Origin: Pectinatus brassicae
GTDB taxonomy: Bacteria; Bacillota; Negativicutes; Selenomonadales; Selenomonadaceae
Reading direction: 5' to 3'
Assembly: GCF_014201835.1 (NCBI RefSeq)
Contig: NZ_JACHFH010000026.1
Span: forward strand, 1-38,535
DNA: 38,535 nucleotides
Shown here piece after piece: positions 1 to 38,535 of this stretch. The stretch's first letter is position 1. Each line of letters starts with the position of its first letter. The notes under the pieces were generated by a model. It saw nothing but the letters and a program-made list of their open reading frames with translations, searched no databases and had not been told where the DNA came from. The translations under genes and the position numbers were made by a program.

Positions 1-120
1 AGCATTTCAAGCAGTATTGGATTGGTCTTTTGCCAATCTCTATATGCATATTTCTATACATACTGACTAGTTTGGTCGCCTAACTCACGACTTAAATCAC
101 GAGTGTGCGGCTCCCATTTA
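1..120 (-). mobile_element. 5' (left) end of an IStron inserted in mtmB, cut by the window edge
   Basis: Bases 1-120 match 7441-7560, the 5' end of the complete element described below, at 116 of 120 positions (differences at 65, 70, 93 and 96). The element reads on the minus strand. Its first base is 120, directly after host TTGAT (minus strand, 125-121), the same junction as in the complete copy. The rest, including any tnpB, lies outside the window. It is the 5' end of a group I intron/IS605-type element, so the host transcript could be restored by splicing. That is inferred from the second copy, because the catalytic core of this copy is not visible. Confidence 0.88.
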
Positions 121-846
121 ATCAATTTTGAGTTCATTTAACTGGGAAACTTCATGACTATCGGTTTTTCTCATGCCACCTGGAAAATCTGCTGCGATTA
201 CTCCAGCTGCTGAGAGGGATGTTTCGTTACCCTACAGGCCCATACCTGAACGGCCGGCTCTATCTTGTGCCGCACGTACCATAATCGCTTCTGATTTTAC
301 AGCTTCGATTTCCCATGGTGTCCCAGGTGTTGGATCCTTTCCTTTTATTGTTTGTAATACACCATCAACAATGGTATCTACGATTGGTTCTTTTGCATAA
401 GATTGATGTATTGCTAAAAAATGTTCTTCGGAACAAGGTGCACCAGTAGGACCGCCTTGAATGATTGGTGAACAAGCATCGGTATGTTTTCTGCATTTAA
501 CTAATCTGCCATGCAATCCAACTTCACCAAACTGGAATTCCTTTGGTGCTTTAGCTAATGCATCCAATACTTCCTGTTCGGTATATTTTATGACACGTTT
601 TGTGTCTATGCAATAAATACCACAAGTTACCAACATTTCCATGCCTGCTTTAAACAAGCGTTTCATCATACCCATATCGGTTGGTATTATTTGATTTTTA
701 TCTAATTTGATATCATATTTTTTCTTCAATTCCGACGCTGTGCGTGGAATCATTTTAAAATCCCATTGTTTTTCGTCTACTTCAGGCCCGGTCTTAGCTC
801 TGTCATAGACATCAAAAACAGTTACTGGCTTTGCTGCTACTGCCAT
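121..846 (-). CDS. mtmB: Monomethylamine methyltransferase MtmB, pyrrolysine (amber) codon, interrupted by IStron
   Basis: MtmB demethylates monomethylamine, passing the methyl group to its corrinoid protein and releasing ammonia. The frame starts at ATG 846 and runs 204 codons to an in-frame TAG at 234-232. It then continues open for 37 more codons to 121. The residues around the TAG are GMGL-TAG-GNETSLSA, followed by TDSHEVSQLNELKID. From memory, Methanosarcina MtmB has GMGV-Pyl-GPETSLSA and then TDSHEVSQLNELKID at about residue 202. TAG is therefore best read as pyrrolysine 205. The N-terminal part also fits (VYDRAKTG, KLFKAGMEMLVTCGIYC-like core, IIQGGPTGAP). After codon 242 the IStron begins, and about 215 C-terminal residues should follow beyond the window. 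mtmC lies 34 bases upstream. The pyl genes are not in this window. Standard gene calling would report a 204-residue truncated protein. Confidence 0.93.
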
Positions 847-880: not shown

Positions 881-1543
881 TTATTTTTTGCAGTTGGCAA
901 CTAGTGCTTTGGCTTTTTCAACAGCTTCAGCTGCATTATCAGCATATGCATCAGCGCCAATGCTTTCTACCCATTCAGGCGATACTGGAGCACCGCCAAA
1001 CATACATTTGAATTGGTCACGAATATTTTGTTCTTTCAAAATGTTTATAATATCTCTTTGAGCAGGCATCGTTGTTGTCATAAGTGCTGCCCCAGCAATG
1101 ATATCAACATTATATTCTTTAGCTTTAGCAATTACATCTGTAGTTGCAGCATCACGTCCAATGTCGATTACTTCAAAGCCGCTTGCTGAAAACATAGTTT
1201 TTACGATATTTTTACCGATATCATGAATATCGCTTTCTACTGTAAAAATCAATATTTTCCCCAAGCTGGTTGCATTTTTTTCATCAGCTGACATTTTGCT
1301 CGTTATAATGCTTACTGCATTTTCAAAAATTTCAGATGCCACAACCAGCTGTGGTACAAAAGCTTCCCCTTCATCAAACAAATCACTTTGTACCTGCATC
1401 CCGGCACCCAAGCCCTCATTAATAGCTTCAATCGGATTAATTCCAAGTTCTAAAGCCTCTTTAGCAGCTTCTTCCCCCAAGTCTTCATCTAATTCAGCTA
1501 TTGAGTTCTTTAATTTTTCTAATACTTCTTCTTTTGAACTCAT
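881..1543 (-). CDS. mtmC: Methylamine corrinoid protein (MtmC family)
   Basis: This 220-residue protein is the methyl carrier between MtmB and a downstream methyltransferase. An N-terminal helical cap domain (about residues 1-90) is followed by a B12-binding Rossmann domain. The cobalamin motif is visible as D105-x-H107-D-x-G110, where H107 would be the lower axial cobalt ligand. It is followed by GAALMTTTM (151-159) and the GG at 183-184. Length and layout match MtmC/MtbC/MttC proteins; assignment to monomethylamine rests on the adjacent mtmB. The start is supported by AGGAGGGAAG ahead of ATG 1543. It follows amtB after a 121-base gap that holds a perfect 17-bp inverted repeat. No reactivating protein (RamA type) or MtbA-like partner is in the window. 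Confidence 0.93.
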   Translation of the reverse strand: MSSKEEVLEKLKNSIAELDEDLGEEAAKEALELGINPIEAINEGLGAGMQVQSDLFDEGEAFVPQLVVASEIFENAVSIITSKMSADEKNATSLGKILIFTVESDIHDIGKNIVKTMFSASGFEVIDIGRDAATTDVIAKAKEYNVDIIAGAALMTTTMPAQRDIINILKEQNIRDQFKCMFGGAPVSPEWVESIGADAYADNAAEAVEKAKALVANCKK

Positions 1544-1664: not shown

Positions 1665-2987
1665 TTATAAATGGCAATATGGACTTTCACCATGTTGACT
1701 ATAATCCAAGCCTGCTTTTTCAACACTTTTTGATACACGCAATTTGATAAATATGCCAATCACTTTCAAAAGTATTGTCGTTACAATTGCTGATACACAT
1801 ATGGAAACAACTACACCAATTATCTGAATCAAAACCTGATGCGGATTGCCATATAACAGGCCATTAGCACCAGCCTCATTTACTGCGGTCGTTGAAAATA
1901 CACCAGTAAGAATCGCTCCGCAAATCCCACCTACGCCATGGACACCAAATGCATCTAAAGAATCATCGTACCCCATAGCTTTTTTTACATATGTGACAGA
2001 AATAAAACATACAATACTTACAATAACCCCAATAGCAAGTGCTGCCCATATTTCAACAAAACCAGCAGCTGGTGTAATACCTACCAATCCTGCTAAGGCT
2101 GAAGTAACAACCCCCATTAAAGTACACTTGCCAAAAACAATTTTATCCATAATTGCCCATGTTACTACCGCAGCTGCTGAAGCAACACCAGTATTAGTAA
2201 ACGCCAATACCATCAATTCATTAGCCCCAAGTGCACAGCCAGAATTAAAACCAAACCAGCCAATCCATAATACAGCTCCGCCTAAAAGAACATATGGTAA
2301 ATTATTGGGGACAAAGGAAGCTTGTCCAAAGCCATAGCGTTTTCCGACAATATATGATGCTACAAGTCCTGACACACCAGAAGAAATATGTATAACAGTT
2401 CCTCCCGCAAAATCCAGTGCTCCAAGATTTCTAATTACACCACCAATCCCCCATACCATATGACAAAGCGGATCATAAACAAATGTCGCCCACAAAACAA
2501 TAAAAATTGCATATGCTGAAAAATTCATGCGTTCAGCAATCGAACCACTTATAATTGCTGGTGTGATCACCGCAAACATCATTTGAAATAATGCAAATTC
2601 CATATGTGGGATAGTTGGCGTATAATCGGCAAACGGTGTTAAACCAACACCATTAAAACCAGCCCATTGTAAATTACCTATAATCCCGCTGATATCCGGA
2701 CCAAAGGATAACGAATATCCCCATAAAACCCATTGAACAGCAATAAGACCCGTAGCGATAAATGACATCATAATTGTATTTAACAGATTCTTTTTTCTTA
2801 CCATACCGCCATAAAAAAATCCCAATGCAGGTGTCATAAAAAAGACCATCAAAGCGGCAAATGCTACATAACCTACATCAGCATAATTTATTGTAGATGC
2901 CGGCTGTTCTCCAGCTGCCATTGCAATAGTTGGCATCAACATAATTATTGCTGATAATAATAATATATTCCCAAATTTTTTAAACAT
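1665..2987 (-). CDS. amtB: Ammonium/methylammonium transporter (Amt family)
   Basis: This 440-residue Amt channel passes ammonium, and known family members also pass methylammonium. A cleavable signal peptide is visible (MFKKFGNILLLSAIIM to AMAA, about residues 1-25), followed by 11 predicted membrane segments. Family motifs are SIAERMNF (149-156) and DFAGGTVIH (192-200). The twin pore histidines are H200 and H350 (GVHGVGG). The gene follows glnK by 32 bases, the usual glnK-amtB pair. Unusually, the same operon then carries mtmC and mtmB. This suggests that here the channel also serves methylamine uptake, which is inferred from context only. Confidence 0.95.
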   Translation of the reverse strand: MFKKFGNILLLSAIIMLMPTIAMAAGEQPASTINYADVGYVAFAALMVFFMTPALGFFYGGMVRKKNLLNTIMMSFIATGLIAVQWVLWGYSLSFGPDISGIIGNLQWAGFNGVGLTPFADYTPTIPHMEFALFQMMFAVITPAIISGSIAERMNFSAYAIFIVLWATFVYDPLCHMVWGIGGVIRNLGALDFAGGTVIHISSGVSGLVASYIVGKRYGFGQASFVPNNLPYVLLGGAVLWIGWFGFNSGCALGANELMVLAFTNTGVASAAAVVTWAIMDKIVFGKCTLMGVVTSALAGLVGITPAAGFVEIWAALAIGVIVSIVCFISVTYVKKAMGYDDSLDAFGVHGVGGICGAILTGVFSTTAVNEAGANGLLYGNPHQVLIQIIGVVVSICVSAIVTTILLKVIGIFIKLRVSKSVEKAGLDYSQHGESPYCHL

Positions 2988-3019: not shown

Positions 3020-3382
3020 TTATTTATTATCAACTATTGCTGCGCCGCCTTCTTCTCCTGTACGTATCTTAACTGCATTATTTATTTCATAGACAAAAAT
3101 TTTGCCATCACCTATTTTCCCGGTATAAAGGATCTCCTTAGCTGCTTTTATAAGTGCTTCAACAGGTGTTTCATAAATAACTATTTCTATTTTTATTTTT
3201 GGATGCAGTGAAATATCTACGATATTTCCGCGGTAACGTTCAATATGCCCCTGTTGCAAACCACAACCATAAACATTGCTTACGGTCATTCCAGTGACAC
3301 CGATTTCATTCATTTTTTCCTTAAAATCTTCTAATTTTTCCGGTCTTGTAATAATATCCACTTTATATAATTTTTCTGCCAT
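3020..3382 (-). CDS. glnK: PII nitrogen regulatory protein (GlnK/GlnB)
   Basis: This 120-residue PII protein binds ATP/ADP and 2-oxoglutarate and gates the neighbouring Amt channel through its T-loop. Seen in the sequence: the start of the T-loop QQGHIERYRG (43-52), the B-loop TGKIGDGKIFV and the C-loop RIRTGEEGG-type segment (IRTGEEGG). Compared with E. coli GlnB, the T-loop is about two residues shorter after YRG, and no tyrosine stands at the Tyr51 position. Uridylylation at that site is therefore unlikely. AGGAGAGG lies just ahead of ATG 3382. It is the first gene of the operon, about 160 bases downstream of a strong promoter with a terminator-like hairpin between. Confidence 0.95.
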   Translation of the reverse strand: MAEKLYKVDIITRPEKLEDFKEKMNEIGVTGMTVSNVYGCGLQQGHIERYRGNIVDISLHPKIKIEIVIYETPVEALIKAAKEILYTGKIGDGKIFVYEINNAVKIRTGEEGGAAIVDNK

Positions 3383-3690: not shown

Positions 3691-5550
3691 TTAAAAAGAA
3701 AATTTTCCCTGCCTGCTTTCATAAAAATCTAAAATTTTCGTACTTGGCTGCGGACGACTGATAAGATATCCCTGCAAATAATCACAATTTAATTTCTGCA
3801 TGGCTTCAAGCTGTATTTTATTTTCAATACCTTCAGCAACAACTTGAATATGCGTTTGATGGGCTAATTGAATAATTGTACCAATAATAGCTGCCCCGTT
3901 GGCAGTATTATCAATTTCCTGAATAAATGACTTATCTATTTTCAATATATCGATTGGTAAGCTGCTCAAATATCTTAACGAAGAATATCCTGTGCCAAAA
4001 TCGTCTAATGAAATATGGATTCCCATACTTCTAAGTTCTTTAATTTTTTCTATATTCTCTTCTAATGATTCCATTAAAATACTTTCAGTAATCTCAAATT
4101 CCAGAGCATCCGGTGAATAGTTTTCTTCACGCATAATCTTCTTCACTCTTTGTAAAAAATCTTCTTGCATAAGCTGACGCGCTGAAATATTTACTGCTAC
4201 ACGTATCTTTGTTTTAGCCTTCTTCTTTAAAGAATTGCCAAAACGGCAGGCAGCACGCATAATCAATTCACCCAACGGTATAATTAATCCTGTCTCCTCT
4301 GCCAATGGAATAAAATCAAACGGCGGCATCAGGCCCTTGCTAGGATGCTCCCATCGAACTAACGCTTCAAAGCCTGTAATAACTCCTGAAAGGATGTGGA
4401 CCTGCGGCTGATAAAAAGCCACAAGCTGATCAAGCACTAATGCTTGCTGCAATTCATTTTCCAGGCGTAAACGCTTTATTATAGAAAGCTGCATCTCTTC
4501 TTCAAATAGTTTCCATGTCTTTTTACCTTGTTTTTTGGCATGATGAAGCGCTGTAGACGCATTTGCCAAGACTGTATCACCAGATACTGCACTTGCTAAA
4601 CAAACAATCCCCACACTGGTTGATACAATAATTTGGTTTCTACAAGCATAAATAGGTTTACTAAATAATCCCAAAATTTTTTGTGCCCATTTTTCAATTG
4701 ACTGTACTTCTATCTTCCTTAGAAAAAAAGCAAATTCATCACCGCCTACACGTACCACCATACCAAATTCAGCCAAGTTTTCTACTAATCGCTCGGCAAT
4801 GCCTACTAGTAATGCATCCCCACAGGCATAGCCCCAAGTATCATTAACAGCCTTAAAATTATCCACATTTAATAAAAACAGTGCGCCCGATACATCCCTT
4901 TTCCCTATTAAATATTCTTTAAGACTTTCCTGTAATTTTACAGCATTGGGCAAATCGGTCAGTGAATCATGATATGCCATATGGTGTATTCTTTCTTCCT
5001 GCTGCTTGCGTGTTGTTATATCAGAATAAGAACCTATCATTCGCAATGGCAGTCCTTTGGTATCAAAAATAACCTTTCCCCTGGCCAAAAGCCAAATCCA
5101 ACGTCCTGAAGGTACCTGCCAGCGATATTCAATAACATAAACCTCCTTGTTCTGCCCCTCCATATGTTCCTGTAGTTTCTTTTCTCTTCGCACAAAATCT
5201 TCTGGATGGATACGACAATTCCATTTTTCTGATAATCTTTCAATAACGACCAGCGGTTGATCAAAATCTACTGTTGTATTGGGAACCAAACCAAGCTTTT
5301 TAGCCCAAGCCGTAGAAATAGACCATATATCTTTATGAATATCCCAATCCCAAATTGCATCACTAGACACTTCAATGGCAATTCGATAGCGCATTTCACT
5401 TTCTAATAATGATGCCTGAGTTTTTTCCAGCTCAGCAATTCTTTGCTGCAATTCTGGATAATAGCTTTTACGAGCAGATGATTCCCCTAGTCCAATCAAT
5501 AATTCTCTCTCAAAATTAAACCCTTCTTTATCATCAAAAAGCTTGCTCAT
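3691..5550 (-). CDS. PAS-GGDEF-EAL cyclic-di-GMP signalling protein
   Basis: This 619-residue cytoplasmic protein has no membrane segment. A short coiled coil (about 31-52) precedes a PAS domain with PAC motif (about 50-182), a GGDEF domain (about 190-345) and an EAL domain (about 360-610). The diguanylate cyclase signature is intact (GGDEF 269-273), but the RxxD inhibitory site before it is absent. The phosphodiesterase residues are all present: E395 of EAL, N454, E486, D516-D517, K537 and E573. Both activities are therefore possible, with the PAS domain as sensor. The ATG at 5550 overlaps the end of the alcohol dehydrogenase gene by 17 bases, so the two are probably co-transcribed and translationally coupled. 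An IStron upstream could therefore affect its expression. Confidence 0.93.
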   Translation of the reverse strand: MSKLFDDKEGFNFERELLIGLGESSARKSYYPELQQRIAELEKTQASLLESEMRYRIAIEVSSDAIWDWDIHKDIWSISTAWAKKLGLVPNTTVDFDQPLVVIERLSEKWNCRIHPEDFVRREKKLQEHMEGQNKEVYVIEYRWQVPSGRWIWLLARGKVIFDTKGLPLRMIGSYSDITTRKQQEERIHHMAYHDSLTDLPNAVKLQESLKEYLIGKRDVSGALFLLNVDNFKAVNDTWGYACGDALLVGIAERLVENLAEFGMVVRVGGDEFAFFLRKIEVQSIEKWAQKILGLFSKPIYACRNQIIVSTSVGIVCLASAVSGDTVLANASTALHHAKKQGKKTWKLFEEEMQLSIIKRLRLENELQQALVLDQLVAFYQPQVHILSGVITGFEALVRWEHPSKGLMPPFDFIPLAEETGLIIPLGELIMRAACRFGNSLKKKAKTKIRVAVNISARQLMQEDFLQRVKKIMREENYSPDALEFEITESILMESLEENIEKIKELRSMGIHISLDDFGTGYSSLRYLSSLPIDILKIDKSFIQEIDNTANGAAIIGTIIQLAHQTHIQVVAEGIENKIQLEAMQKLNCDYLQGYLISRPQPSTKILDFYESRQGKFSF

Positions 5551-5761
5551 AAACAGCTGTCACATCCTTTACTGTCATCGGTTTTGGATTTGTTGACATA
5601 CAAGCATCTCGTAAAGCATAGTCAACAAGCTGTGGCAAATCGTCATATTTTACGCCTAAATCTCGCAAAGTATTACCAACCCCTATCCCGCGGCGAAAAC
5701 GCTCTACTTCTTCACACAATTTACTGCCTATTAATTCCTTGGCTGTATTTTCAATCTGAAC
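5534..5761 (-). CDS. Iron-containing alcohol dehydrogenase, C-terminal part (3' exon)
   Basis: These 75 codons end at TGA 5536-5534. They read V-QIENTAKELIGSKLCEEVERF and later LGVKYDDLPQLVDYALRDAC and NPKPMTVKD, the typical C-terminus of iron-containing alcohol dehydrogenases. There is no start codon of its own with a good ribosome site; the TTG at 5719 is only an internal codon. Joined to codon 318 of the upstream part (7561) it gives a 393-residue protein of normal family length, reading GID-VQIEN across the junction. The IStron 5762-7560 separates the two parts. Confidence 0.9.
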   Translation of the reverse strand, partial: VQIENTAKELIGSKLCEEVERFRRGIGVGNTLRDLGVKYDDLPQLVDYALRDACMSTNPKPMTVKDVTAVYEQAF

Positions 5762-5874
5762 CTCCCACGGCTAAAGTCGCGGGGTTCCTGCTTCATAGAT
5801 AGTTGCGCAAAAAACACGTCTTACATTATCTCCACAGGCTATCCCCGTAGTTCCTACGGTTCTTATATATGTTA
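5762..5874 (-). ncRNA. Right end of IStron: predicted 3' part of TnpB guide RNA (omega RNA) and 3' splice site
   Basis: This is the 113 bases between the tnpB stop and the host gene. It ends in a hairpin-forming segment (CCCCGCGACTTTAGCC then GTGGGAG), the style of right end seen in TnpB elements, where it forms the scaffold end of the guide RNA. The last base is G, as required for the terminal G of a group I intron. The guide would be the flanking host sequence starting GTTCAGATTG at 5761. The 5' limit of the RNA inside tnpB cannot be set by eye. Confidence 0.65.
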
Positions 5875-6984
5875 TTACACTGCTGTGTTTAAAATTCTTA
5901 ATCCTTCATTGCGAATGTTTATAGCGGCATTTATGTCTCTGTCATGATGTGATTTACATTCAGGACATTCCCATTGTCTTATAGTAAGGTCTTTTATTTC
6001 TTTATTTTGATAACCACAATTATGACAAAGCTGACTTGATGGATAGAATTTATCTATTTGCATTATTTCTTTGCCATACCACTGAGCTTTATATTTTAGC
6101 TGGCGAGTAAATTCTGACCAGCTGGCATCTATAATGCTTTGGGCAAGTTTGTGGTTTTTCAGCATGTTATTTACTTGTAATTCTTCTAAGCAGATAACAT
6201 CGTAGTTTTCTATAAGTTTGAGCGAGAGTTTATGCAGCATATCTTTTCGCTGATTTGCAATACGTGCCTGTAAGTGAGCCACTTTGATTCTTGCTTTATT
6301 TCTGTTTGCGCTGCCCTTTGTTTTTCGGGACAAGCGTCTTTGCAGTTTGGCAAGTTTTTCCAGTGACTGTTTGAGGTATTTATGATGGGGATGTTTGTCG
6401 CCATCGGAGGTAATTGCAAATTCTTTTAAGCCAAGGTCGATACCGACATAGTTGTCAGTTCGCTTAAAAACAGGTTTTTCTACTTCGGTGCAGCATAGAG
6501 ATACAAAGTATTTACCATCAGGCGTTTGTGATATTACAGCGTTTAAGATTCTGCCCTGTGGTATTTGTTTGTCTCTTATTTTTACTTTACCCAGCTTGGG
6601 AAGTTTTATCTTTGTTCCCAAAAATTCAATGTTGCCATTGGTAAAGTTTGTCTTGTAGGATTTATGCCTGTTCTTTTTTGACTTGAATTTAGGAAAACCA
6701 ACATTTTTACGTTTAAAGAAATTCTGATAGGCCATATCGAGGTCTTTTAACGAGTTTTGTAGGGAACATTTATCCGGCTCTCTCAGCCAGATGTTCTCTT
6801 TTTTTAACTGCGTTAAATTTCTTGAACACTTGGAAAATGTAAGTGTTGTTTTATCATCTTGATATGCTTTAATTCGCATAGCGAGATAGTGGTTAAAGAC
6901 ATATCTTACACAGCCAAATGTTTTTTGTATCAGTATTTCCTGTATTTTGTTGGGGTATATCCTAAATTTGAAGGCTTTTTCCAT
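5875..6984 (-). CDS. tnpB: TnpB RNA-guided nuclease of the IStron
   Basis: This 369-residue TnpB, ancestor family of Cas12, cuts DNA next to a target-adjacent motif under guidance of an RNA from its own right end. It begins with the usual TnpB N-terminus ([12 protein letters not shown]). The RuvC active site is complete: D183 in [13 protein letters not shown]267 in CLEELQVNN and D350 in [12 protein letters not shown] zinc ribbon is formed by C320, C323, C340 and C343. It should therefore be catalytically competent. No convincing Shine-Dalgarno site precedes ATG 6984. It is the only ORF of the element. The expected target motif is TTGAT, the sequence flanking both copies; this is inferred from related elements. 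Confidence 0.95.
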
Positions 6985-7560
6985 AACATACTCACTTTTC
7001 TTTGCATCTTTACAAGATTATCACCTGATTACCTTAAAAATAACATGCAGGCTTTAGAAAAGCAAGTTTTTCATAGTAACATATATAAGAATCGTAAGTT
7101 CTTTTTTAGTCGTATTGGGGAGGTGTCGTTCACACAGGTTCGCTACTTCCCATGCGGTTCTCTTATGAACTCCTTTATGTTTCCATAAAGCACAGACTAT
7201 ATCTTATCCTTCGGCATTATCCGTTAAGGTCTGCCCACTTCCGGTCGCTTGACCGTACTTCCCTCAAGAGGAATAGTCGTTGGGGATTCTCCTGTTCGGA
7301 GCTTTCCTGCTGATTGTCCATTTCTTTAGTGTTTAGGGTTTAACCATGCACCATACAGTATATTTTTTCTACTTTCGTCACCGTCACGTTTGAGTTTATT
7401 TCATCTTTGCGTTGTGGCTATACTGTCTTTAGGAGTTTCCAGCATTTCAAGCAGTATTGGATTGGTCTTTTGCCAATCTCTATATGCATATTTCTATACA
7501 TACTAACTACTTTGGTCGCCTAACTCACGACTAAAGTCACGAGTGTGCGGCTCCCATTTA
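6985..7560 (-). ncRNA. Group I intron 5' part and catalytic core of the IStron
   Basis: The region is noncoding but has recognisable group I intron core elements on the minus strand. CAATCAGCAGG (7316-7306) resembles the Q/P4 element. CGACTATT (7279-7272) resembles R, and AAGATATAGTCT (7205-7194) is the conserved S/P7 element. GACTA and TAGTC of the last two can pair as P7. The 5' exon ends in U of UUGAU, which could pair with GTTAG about 35 bases into the intron, giving a U-G pair at the splice site. The intron would end at G 5762. Subgroup and full fold were not computed. Confidence 0.85.
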
Positions 7561-8514
7561 ATCAATTCCCATCATTTTTCCAATAGCCTGAAATTTTTCC
7601 GGACAAGCAGAATAATTATATTGTATAACCGGCCCCAGTAAAATTGCATTACACTCTCCATGGGCTAAATCAAGAAAACCACCTAAACTATGTGCCATTG
7701 CATGTGCAGCTCCAAGAATAGCATTAGAAAAAGCGAGTCCCGCCTGTAAACTTGCCAACATCATTTGCGCACGCCAGCCCACATCATCTGGTTTTTTTAT
7801 AACTTCCGGCAAAGCTTCCCAGACAAGTTTGATTGCTTCTAAAGCATGCAAATCAGTAATCGGCGAACTGGCATTTGATACATATGCTTCAATCGCATGC
7901 GTTAGTGTATCCATGCCACAGCAAGCTGTTAAATAGGGGTTCATTGTCACTGTCACCTCAGGATCAAGTAAAGCCACATCAGGAACAACTGCTTTACTAA
8001 CAATAGCAATTTTGCACTTGCGTTTTTCATCTAAAATTATCGAAAATTGCGATACTTCTGAAGCACTGCCGCTGGTCGTGGGCAAACAAATAAGCAGTGG
8101 CATCGCATGGGGAATTTTATCAACACCTTCAAAGTCAAGAATATTAGAACCATTAGCCGATACAATACCAATACCCTTGGCACAATCCATAACACTGCCG
8201 CCACCAAGGGCTATAAGGCCATTACATTGTTCATCTGCAAATAATCTGGCACCTTCCATAACCTCTTCTGAACGGGGATTTGGCGTGATGCGCAAAAACT
8301 TTACATATGAAATGCCCGCCTTTGTCAAAGATTGTTCAACATCCCTAACCCAATTTGTTTCATCGTCAAGACTTTTATCACTGACTAACAATACTTTATG
8401 TGCACCAAAATTAGCTGCATAACGCCCAACAAGATGCCTTGAATTAAGACCGAATACAAATTCTGGTGCCACAAATTTGCGCAGCTCAAAAAAATATGTA
8501 TGATTCTTGTTCAC
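7561..8514 (-). CDS. Iron-containing alcohol dehydrogenase, N-terminal part (5' exon)
   Basis: These 318 codons run from GTG 8514 to GAT 7563-7561, after which the IStron gives an immediate TAA. The enzyme would oxidise or reduce an alcohol/aldehyde with NAD(P). Visible family features are the nucleotide-binding GGGSVMDCAKGIG, PTTSGSASEVSQFS, and metal-ligand segments GMDTLTHAIEAY and AHAMAHSLGG followed by DLAHGE. The whole metal site is in this part. The missing 75 C-terminal residues are at 5534-5761. Unless the IStron is spliced from the RNA, the product is truncated. A purine-rich GGGGGCAGGG precedes the GTG. The specific substrate cannot be told. Confidence 0.92.
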
Positions 8515-37929: not shown

Positions 37930-38535
37930 CTCCCACCACTTAATGCCTATGGCATTTGAAGTGGGGGCTTCTTGTTCGATACGACTAATGTCGTAAGCAT
38001 AAGCAAGCTAACCCCGTGTGCCCCACGGTTTATATAATTAGGCAGACAATATTCTTCTGCCTTCTTCACGAATGTTTATGGCGGCATTTATATCTCTGTC
38101 ATGATGCGATTTGCATTCAGGACATTCCCACTGTCTTATAGTTAAGTCTTTTGTGTCACTATTTTTATATCCACATATGTGACAAATCTGGGAACTTGGA
38201 TAAAATTTATCAATCTTAACTAATTTCTTTCCACGTTCTTCTAATTTGTATTTCAACATACTTACGAACATTCCCCATCCATTGTCAGCAACAGATTTGC
38301 CGAAGTTTAATGACTTTGACATGCTCTGCATATTTAAGTCCTCTATGCAAACAGCATCATAACTATCAGCTAACTGACATGAACTTTTATGTTGAAAGTC
38401 TTTTCTTTGATTTGCTATTTTTTCATGTAGCAAAGCTACTCGTTTTCTTTGTTTTTGTCGATTATTGCTACCTTTTTTACACAATGATAACTTTCGTTGC
38501 TCTTTAGCTAATTTCTGTAGTGATTGACGATAAAA
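37930..38535 (-). mobile_element. 3' part of a second IS605-family tnpB element, cut by the window edge
   Basis: On the minus strand the element ends at 37930 with GTGGTGGGAG, preceded by a strong hairpin (CCCCCACTTCAAATGCC...GGCATTAAGTGGTGGG). The last part (GAAGCCCCC...GTGGGAG) resembles the right end of the IStron at 5762. The flank TATGTCACAA would be the guide. The left end is outside, so whether this is also an IStron cannot be seen. Confidence 0.82.
38038..38535 (-). CDS. tnpB: TnpB nuclease, C-terminal part (partial at window end)
   Basis: The frame is open to the window edge, with the last base of the gene at 38038. The visible part has the second RuvC residue in AVCIEDLNMQ, a zinc ribbon CHICGYKN...CPECKSHH, and the last aspartate in [11 protein letters not shown], so the C-terminal half looks intact. 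It matches the IStron TnpB almost exactly around [19 protein letters not shown] but differs widely elsewhere, so it is a related but separate subfamily. Confidence 0.9.
   Translation of the reverse strand, partial: FYRQSLQKLAKEQRKLSLCKKGSNNRQKQRKRVALLHEKIANQRKDFQHKSSCQLADSYDAVCIEDLNMQSMSKSLNFGKSVADNGWGMFVSMLKYKLEERGKKLVKIDKFYPSSQICHICGYKNSDTKDLTIRQWECPECKSHHDRDINAAINIREEGRRILSA

Follow-up and report, generated by a model that had tools for sequence, protein, structure and literature searches.

A UAG-recoded monomethylamine methyltransferase gene probably split by a group A IStron in Pectinatus brassicae

Introduction

Group A IStrons, such as CdISt1 of Clostridioides difficile and MfISt1 of Megamonas funiformis, target TTGAT, ATTAT or TTTAT. 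They combine a group I intron with an IS200/IS605-type TnpB, end in TCAG at their 3′ side and produce no target duplication (Tourasse 2014, PMC4227781). Insertion takes place inside genes, ORF A is often missing, and splicing was confirmed in all tested CdISt1 variants with truncated IS parts (PMC4227781). Bacterial mtmB-pyl operons, as found in Sporomusa, Desulfosporosinus and Acetobacterium, form the second closely related system.

The stretch of DNA analysed here (the window) comprises 38,535 nucleotides of Pectinatus brassicae, contig NZ_JACHFH010000026.1 (hereafter C26) of assembly GCF_014201835.1. A sequence-only reading of the window had proposed that a recoded (UAG) mtmB gene is broken after codon 242 by an IStron, and this was borne out by the PF05369 match, the UAG at codon 205, the PYLIS_1 element and the IStron start, which all agree. 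As in the described mtmB-pyl operons, the UAG occupies the same codon, mtmC lies upstream and an activase gene lies downstream, whereas the IStron insert and a cobT-like gene are missing from the related loci compared. The insert resembles CdISt1 and MfISt1 in its target, its 3′ end and its lack of a duplication, with the intron core and TnpB seen in sister copies; it differs in that its host gene is UAG-recoded, the word pyrrolysine being absent from PMC4227781. Wherever it could be tested, the IStron fits ordinary group A, and nothing unusual was seen in the element itself. As with group I introns that start with a stop codon, a point treated in PMC4227781, translation of unspliced RNA would halt at the junction, where the intron opens with UAA; mtmB differs in carrying a second, decodable stop 37 codons upstream in the exon. 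Among the titles and abstract openings listed for open-licence PMC papers, we found no precedent for a pyrrolysine gene with an intron or mobile element, and those on IStrons, on group I introns with TnpB or with selenoproteins, and on transposon-encoded introns gave no case of a recoded stop plus an intron. UAG recoding and an IStron in one gene appear to be a new combination, each ingredient being well known alone.

Results and Discussion

The 5′ exon of mtmB and its surroundings

The following features were located at the left end of the window.

121-846 (-): mtmB exon 1, codons 1-242, monomethylamine methyltransferase (PF05369; open reading frame with TAG read through)
232-234 (-): in-frame UAG, codon 205, the pyrrolysine position of mtmB (from the sequence)
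135-234 (-): PYLIS_1 RNA element, 3′ of the mtmB UAG (Rfam RF01982, 75.3 bits, E 2.6e-15)
121-125 (-): TTGAT, target of the insertion in mtmB, which also supplies the exon side of P1 (from the sequence)
118-120 (-): UAA, first intron codon, ending the unspliced mtmB frame (from the sequence)
1-120 (-): IStron 5′ end inside mtmB, running off the contig (116/120 identical to the complete copy)
881-1543 (-): mtmC, encoding the methylamine corrinoid protein, immediately upstream of mtmB (PF02310, PF02607)
1665-2987 (-): amtB-type ammonium transporter (open reading frame, named from sequence)
3020-3382 (-): glnK-type PII protein (open reading frame, named from sequence and neighbourhood)

The 242-residue mtmB frame matches positions 1-233 of the 450 of the PF05369 profile with an E value of 2.6e-99 (hmmscan). 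Its UAG stands in the motif MGL-UAG-GNE at the place conserved for MtmB, as expected of a pyrrolysine-encoded gene, and the PYLIS_1 match scores above the gathering score of 70. The locus had been placed correctly by the sequence-only reading, but the exon comprises 121-846, since 118-120 is the intron's own UAA. The IStron begins with TAAATGGGAG at base 120 and heads left off the contig.

The 3′ half and the junction

A profile search of all 89 contigs revealed two MtmB pieces in the genome, one in the window (profile 1-236) and the other on contig C54 (profile 230-450; 235-450 by hmmscan). The first 145 nt of C54 are an IStron 3′ end terminating in GGTTCAG, and mtmB exon 2 follows from base 146; 143 of the 145 positions are identical to the complete copy in the window. 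The right end of the element and the 3′ part of the gene, which had been sought to the left of base 1, are thus both on C54. As assembled, the mtmB copy consists of a 120 nt 5′ end (C26) and presumably this 145 nt 3′ end (C54), with the 3′ TCAG and the lack of target duplication typical of group A IStrons.

Joining the exons turns TTGAT and GTC into neighbours, so that KID is continued by VSALTF and codon 242 by codon 243. The expected spliced junction reads AAAATTGAT followed directly by GTCAGTGCA. A frame mismatch had been considered at the right junction, which is in frame and free of gaps, and the joined halves can be read as one frame of 470 residues, interrupted by no stop other than the UAG. 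The KIDVSAL motif across the junction is invariant in the five MtmB sequences compared. By pattern search, a TAA directly behind the mtmB junction site occurs in this genome only (1/189 genomes of the family), few of which are likely to have mtmB, because MtmB with UAG was present in 4 of 36 other genomes sampled from the same genus or family. Another 4 of these 36 have a weaker match lacking the UAG. These weaker MtmB-family matches (L054-L057, in genomes G009, G032, G006 and G023) score 227-241 bits with no stop in the matched frame, and may represent a pyrrolysine-free MtmB branch in relatives that lack the UAG form.

Phase and orientation of the insertions

The sequence-only reading had stressed that the break falls exactly between codons. 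The frame is indeed restored, but the position carries little weight: across 25 window open reading frames TTGAT ends a codon in 73/89 coding occurrences (a count that takes in the occupied alcohol dehydrogenase site), does not in 16, and is never in phase 1. One of the three phases is unreadable because TTGAT contains TGA, and a between-codon break of mtmB is expected because TTGAT mostly ends a codon. Precise insertion with no target duplication always restores the frame. Phase was accordingly rejected as evidence of splicing, 15/19 sense insertions being in phase 0 against the background of 73/89 (P 0.75). For TTGAT-targeting IStrons the target alone would give an in-frame majority, which bears on the published view (PMC4227781) that selection favours in-frame IStron insertions.

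By a crude ORF-length rule, 19/23 left ends are in sense orientation, compared with 89/151 TTGAT sites in the window (P 0.015), and the same rule gives 19/26 for right ends. This sense bias is weak evidence of splicing. Two of the four left ends scored as antisense look sense by their right halves, a judgement made post hoc (L011, phosphoglucose isomerase; L018, read as tsaB).

The IStron and its sister copies

A complete IStron in the window provides the comparison for the truncated ends in mtmB.

5756-7560 (-): complete sister IStron inside an iron alcohol dehydrogenase gene (1805 bp)
7173-7507 (-): group I intron core of the sister IStron (Rfam RF00028, 70.3 bits, E 5.1e-16)
5875-6984 (-): tnpB of the sister IStron (PF01385, PF07282; phmmer)
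7561-8514 (-): alcohol dehydrogenase exon 1, comparison case (PF25137 profile 1-122)
5537-5755 (-): alcohol dehydrogenase exon 2, comparison case (PF25137 profile 131-194)
63-67 (-): internal guide GUCAG of the mtmB copy, pairing with exon UUGAU to form P1, with U-G at the splice site (predicted pairing)

This element had been noted earlier at 7560, where it is present, though its full extent is 5756-7560 (-), or 1805 bp. That the mtmB insert shares its 5′ end was also correct (116/120 positions identical). Taking the sister IStron out leaves a single 398-codon alcohol dehydrogenase frame, and its tnpB product matches the solved TnpB 8bf8 with an E value of 1.1e-109 (phmmer). The window's right edge (38038-38535, -) resembles by eye the C-terminal part of another TnpB.

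In the 89-contig draft, three of seven intron core matches are whole (on C24, C26 and C42; 97-100% identical), and these three sister copies score 70.3, 69.2 and 67.8 bits against RF00028, the last one (L031) having surfaced with laxer filters. Genome-wide, 23 left and 26 right IStron ends were found. TTGAT precedes all 23 left ends, of which 20 were found without requiring it and the other 3 by a pattern that requires it. From the sister copies, an intact group I core is assumed in the mtmB copy as well.

Folding indicated GUCAG or GUUAG at intron position 54-58 as the P1 guide. At mtmB, the inner four pairs of P1 have probabilities of 0.88-1.0 with 20 nt of exon and 0.79-0.9 with 115 nt, and the outermost pair 0.2. 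The three pairs adjacent to the splice site reach at least 0.5 in 21/22 copies with 20 nt of exon (the exception, L015, has 0.26), and fall to 0.1-0.4 in 5/22 with 115 nt (L003, L007, L008, L009, L018); the 23rd copy, L060, was too short for this tally. A pairing of UUGAU with an upstream GUUAG at intron position 37-41 was dropped as P1, its probability being 0 in every measurable copy. No P10 was seen by eye.

Comparison with related loci

Thirty-nine mtmB loci from the genome collection (Sporomusa, Desulfosporosinus, Acetobacterium and others) were compared; L064-L067, which by their equal lengths are probably the same contigs as L079, L099, L080 and L078, were left out of the counts. By tblastn, the gap between the MtmB halves is zero in 38/38 loci holding both, and none of these has an insert at the junction site; the 39th (L115) holds part of the mtmB 3′ half only. 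TAG stands at the same place in 38/38 loci holding the site, of the 39, and TTGAT at the junction in 9/37 where the junction motif was located. An empty site, TTGAT plus an identical 20 nt, is present in 3/39 relatives (L078, L080, L108), and L079 has the same 20 nt behind TTGAC instead of TTGAT.

In 33/38 relatives an mtmC homologue is located no more than 700 nt upstream of mtmB, and in 21/38 an activase gene no more than 800 nt downstream. In L066 the order is amtB, mtmC, mtmB, activase, methyltransferase-like gene, pylSc, pylB, pylC, pylD; L080, probably the same contig, matches it as far as it reaches, and the order amtB-mtmC-mtmB is found in L080 and L078 too. Here, C26 carries glnK, amtB, mtmC and mtmB exon 1, and C54 carries mtmB exon 2, the cobT-like gene, an activase gene, a methyltransferase-like gene, pylSc, pylB, pylC and pylD. 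The activase is AcsV/RamA-like, with a score under the curated cut-offs of both models. The gene order is not identical to that of the relatives, because their 39 loci all lack a match to the cobT-like gene. A terminator-like hairpin (20 pairs counted) at 853-895 of C54 (L049) lies just behind mtmB and before the cobT-like gene; the pyl genes may therefore form a separate transcript. From these sequences, we infer that the C26 and C54 ends are joined by one IStron copy.

Pyrrolysine machinery

The genome contains the full set of pylT, pylSn, pylSc, pylB, pylC and pylD. The last four are on C54, all above NCBIfam cut-offs, and pylSn is on C11, about 20 bases behind a pylT (L063:5458-5529). The second pylT is on C54 (L049:9669-9740), between an IS630 remnant and a methyltransferase gene, and is identical to the first at 70/72 positions. 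Both were detected by a hand-written cloverleaf scan with a pylT anticodon-loop motif, and neither was reported by ARAGORN. A search of the genome for the MTTB and Dimeth_Pyl families gave no gene, so that mtmB is the only recognised pyrrolysine target among the three known pyrrolysine methyltransferase families. Rarity of UAG stops was rejected as a mark of recoding, with 2/46 genes ending in UAG here and 0/23 in the loci of G004, a genome of the same genus with no MtmB match.

Other genes split by the IStron

Pfam was run on the flanking frames of 23/23 left and 23/26 right ends (3 were too short); 7/23 left and 8/23 right frames gave no match. Besides mtmB, complementary halves of one family were recovered for an aminotransferase (9-140 and 175-403), the alcohol dehydrogenase (1-122 and 131-194), UppS (1-62 and 65-219 in this Pfam run), a LacI-type regulator (4-111 and 114-166), a nitroreductase (2-96 and 100-166) and a pair of ABC type that was read as UvrA (1-32 and 84-137). 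Other pairs, matched by eye, are MotA, an ABC exporter, an ABC-F protein, RecN, TsaB and another LacI. The pairs read by eye include L018 with L041 (tsaB), L012 with L025 (uvrA) and L013 with L034 (recN). The split phosphoglucose isomerase gene (L011 and L028) lies entirely on C24. Three pairs lie on one contig and were joined with no guessing, namely alcohol dehydrogenase, aminotransferase and phosphoglucose isomerase.

The genome's only uppS is also in two halves, which adjoin IStron ends: profile 1-65 (C38:81-275, L118) and 64-219 (C36:26435-26908, L117), split around profile position 62-65 in phase 2. Since uppS is essential in bacteria where tested, the split gene is a natural essential-gene test of splicing. 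In the two-contig genome G004, where 11 of 30 candidates were scored, ten places hold complete IStrons of 802-2199 bp and no right end was found at the eleventh. Eight of the ten lie in open frames that their removal restores exactly, and two lie outside an obvious frame.

Expression of mtmB and alternative explanations

Both mtmB exons, the target, the exact frame, the IStron ends at both breaks and the pyrrolysine machinery are directly established. Very probably, a group A IStron sits precisely behind TTGAT in mtmB, and splicing together with UAG decoding yields MtmB. The transcript would pass through the IStron, whose group I intron would fold and cut behind UUGAU; guided by the pairing of UUGAU with GUCAG in P1 and by the UCAG at the intron's 3′ end, GAU would be ligated to GUC, codon 242 to codon 243. 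In the spliced mRNA, UAG 205 would be decoded as pyrrolysine to give MtmB of 470 residues. On unspliced RNA, ribosomes past the UAG would halt 37 codons on at the intron UAA and leave a 242-residue fragment. Splicing of the mtmB intron is a well-supported inference from sequence, because other genes, the only uppS among them, are split by the same IStron and the mtmB copy keeps a predicted P1.

Intact exons would also fit a non-splicing insertion of very recent date, in which case mtmB would be a knocked-out gene whose exons have simply had no time to decay. The ends of the mtmB copy are almost identical to those of the sister copy, and thus young, and MtmB was not matched in any of four further genomes of the genus that were searched, and is hence dispensable. 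We nevertheless consider a knock-out unlikely, as the two exons and such pyl genes as were found have open frames, the prediction at the mtmB site gives an intact P1, and the same IStron splits the only uppS and other genes. It is very unlikely that the mtmB halves have ceased to be neighbours through recombination between IStron copies or wrong assembly. C26 and C54 both end inside an IStron, the assembly does not give the pairing of the 23 left with the 26 right ends, and the cobT-like gene behind mtmB is absent from the relatives' loci; against this, the two MtmB pieces are complementary and unique, and mtmC before them with the activase and pyl genes after them agrees with the order in relatives such as L080 and L066.

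Production of the protein after excision of the element from DNA by TnpA, rather than by RNA splicing, strikes us as extremely improbable. IS200-type TnpA genes do exist on C29, C66 and C36, the one on C29 beside an IStron-like right end; yet the contigs of the three whole IStrons (C24, C26, C42) have no TnpA match, and DNA excision would hardly serve the essential uppS while the element remains in place. We give almost no credence to two cooperating polypeptides, the 242-residue N-terminal part and a C-terminal part started at an internal ATG (C54:197). This in-frame ATG opens a 211-codon frame, but the initial 17 residues of exon 2, partly invariant in five sequences, would be missing from its product, and the halves are fused in all 38 relatives with both.

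Against splicing by the element stands at least one apparently antisense copy. At L015 and L038, paired by eye, the IStron seems to lie antisense to a gene, the opposite strand having open frames of 146 and 290 codons, and there it could not splice from that gene's mRNA.

If mtmB is expressed by splicing and UAG decoding, its product would need two non-standard serial steps, RNA self-splicing and stop-codon recoding, and a genome annotation blind to both exceptions would lose the gene twice over. The gene also offers a clean test of interference between ribosome traffic and intron splicing in bacteria, because a splice site that opens with a stop codon follows a decodable stop at a distance of 37 codons. 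Unwinding of P1 by ribosomes would depend on whether they halt at UAG 205 or continue to the intron UAA. A coupling of decoding and splicing, in which pyrrolysine supply tunes splicing and the balance between spliced mRNA and TnpB guide RNA, is conceivable on these grounds, though we regard it as unlikely.

TnpB, TnpA and the IStrons

By the guide logic of TnpB, the guide expected from the mtmB copy would correspond to the start of exon 2, with TTGAT as the adjoining motif, and the 20 bases of this expected guide occur with no mismatch behind TTGAT in 3/39 relatives (L078, L080, L108). With this guide, TnpB could in principle cleave mtmB alleles that have no insert, and so favour the IStron.

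The IS200-type tnpA on C29 (L068) has an end that resembles an IStron right end (CTTTAGTCGTGGGCGGTTCAG), and could act on IStrons in trans. In the aminotransferase gene on C42, the 892 bp IStron L031 lacks open reading frames and has kept its group I intron; its 3′-end region gives weak Rfam matches to Ref70 (32.1 bits, cut-off 115) and RAGATH-18 (24.9 bits, cut-off 44.9), which are perhaps related IS605-type RNAs. The 2199 bp IStron L131 of G004 carries both an IS200-type TnpA and a TnpB, and possibly represents an autonomous form of the element.
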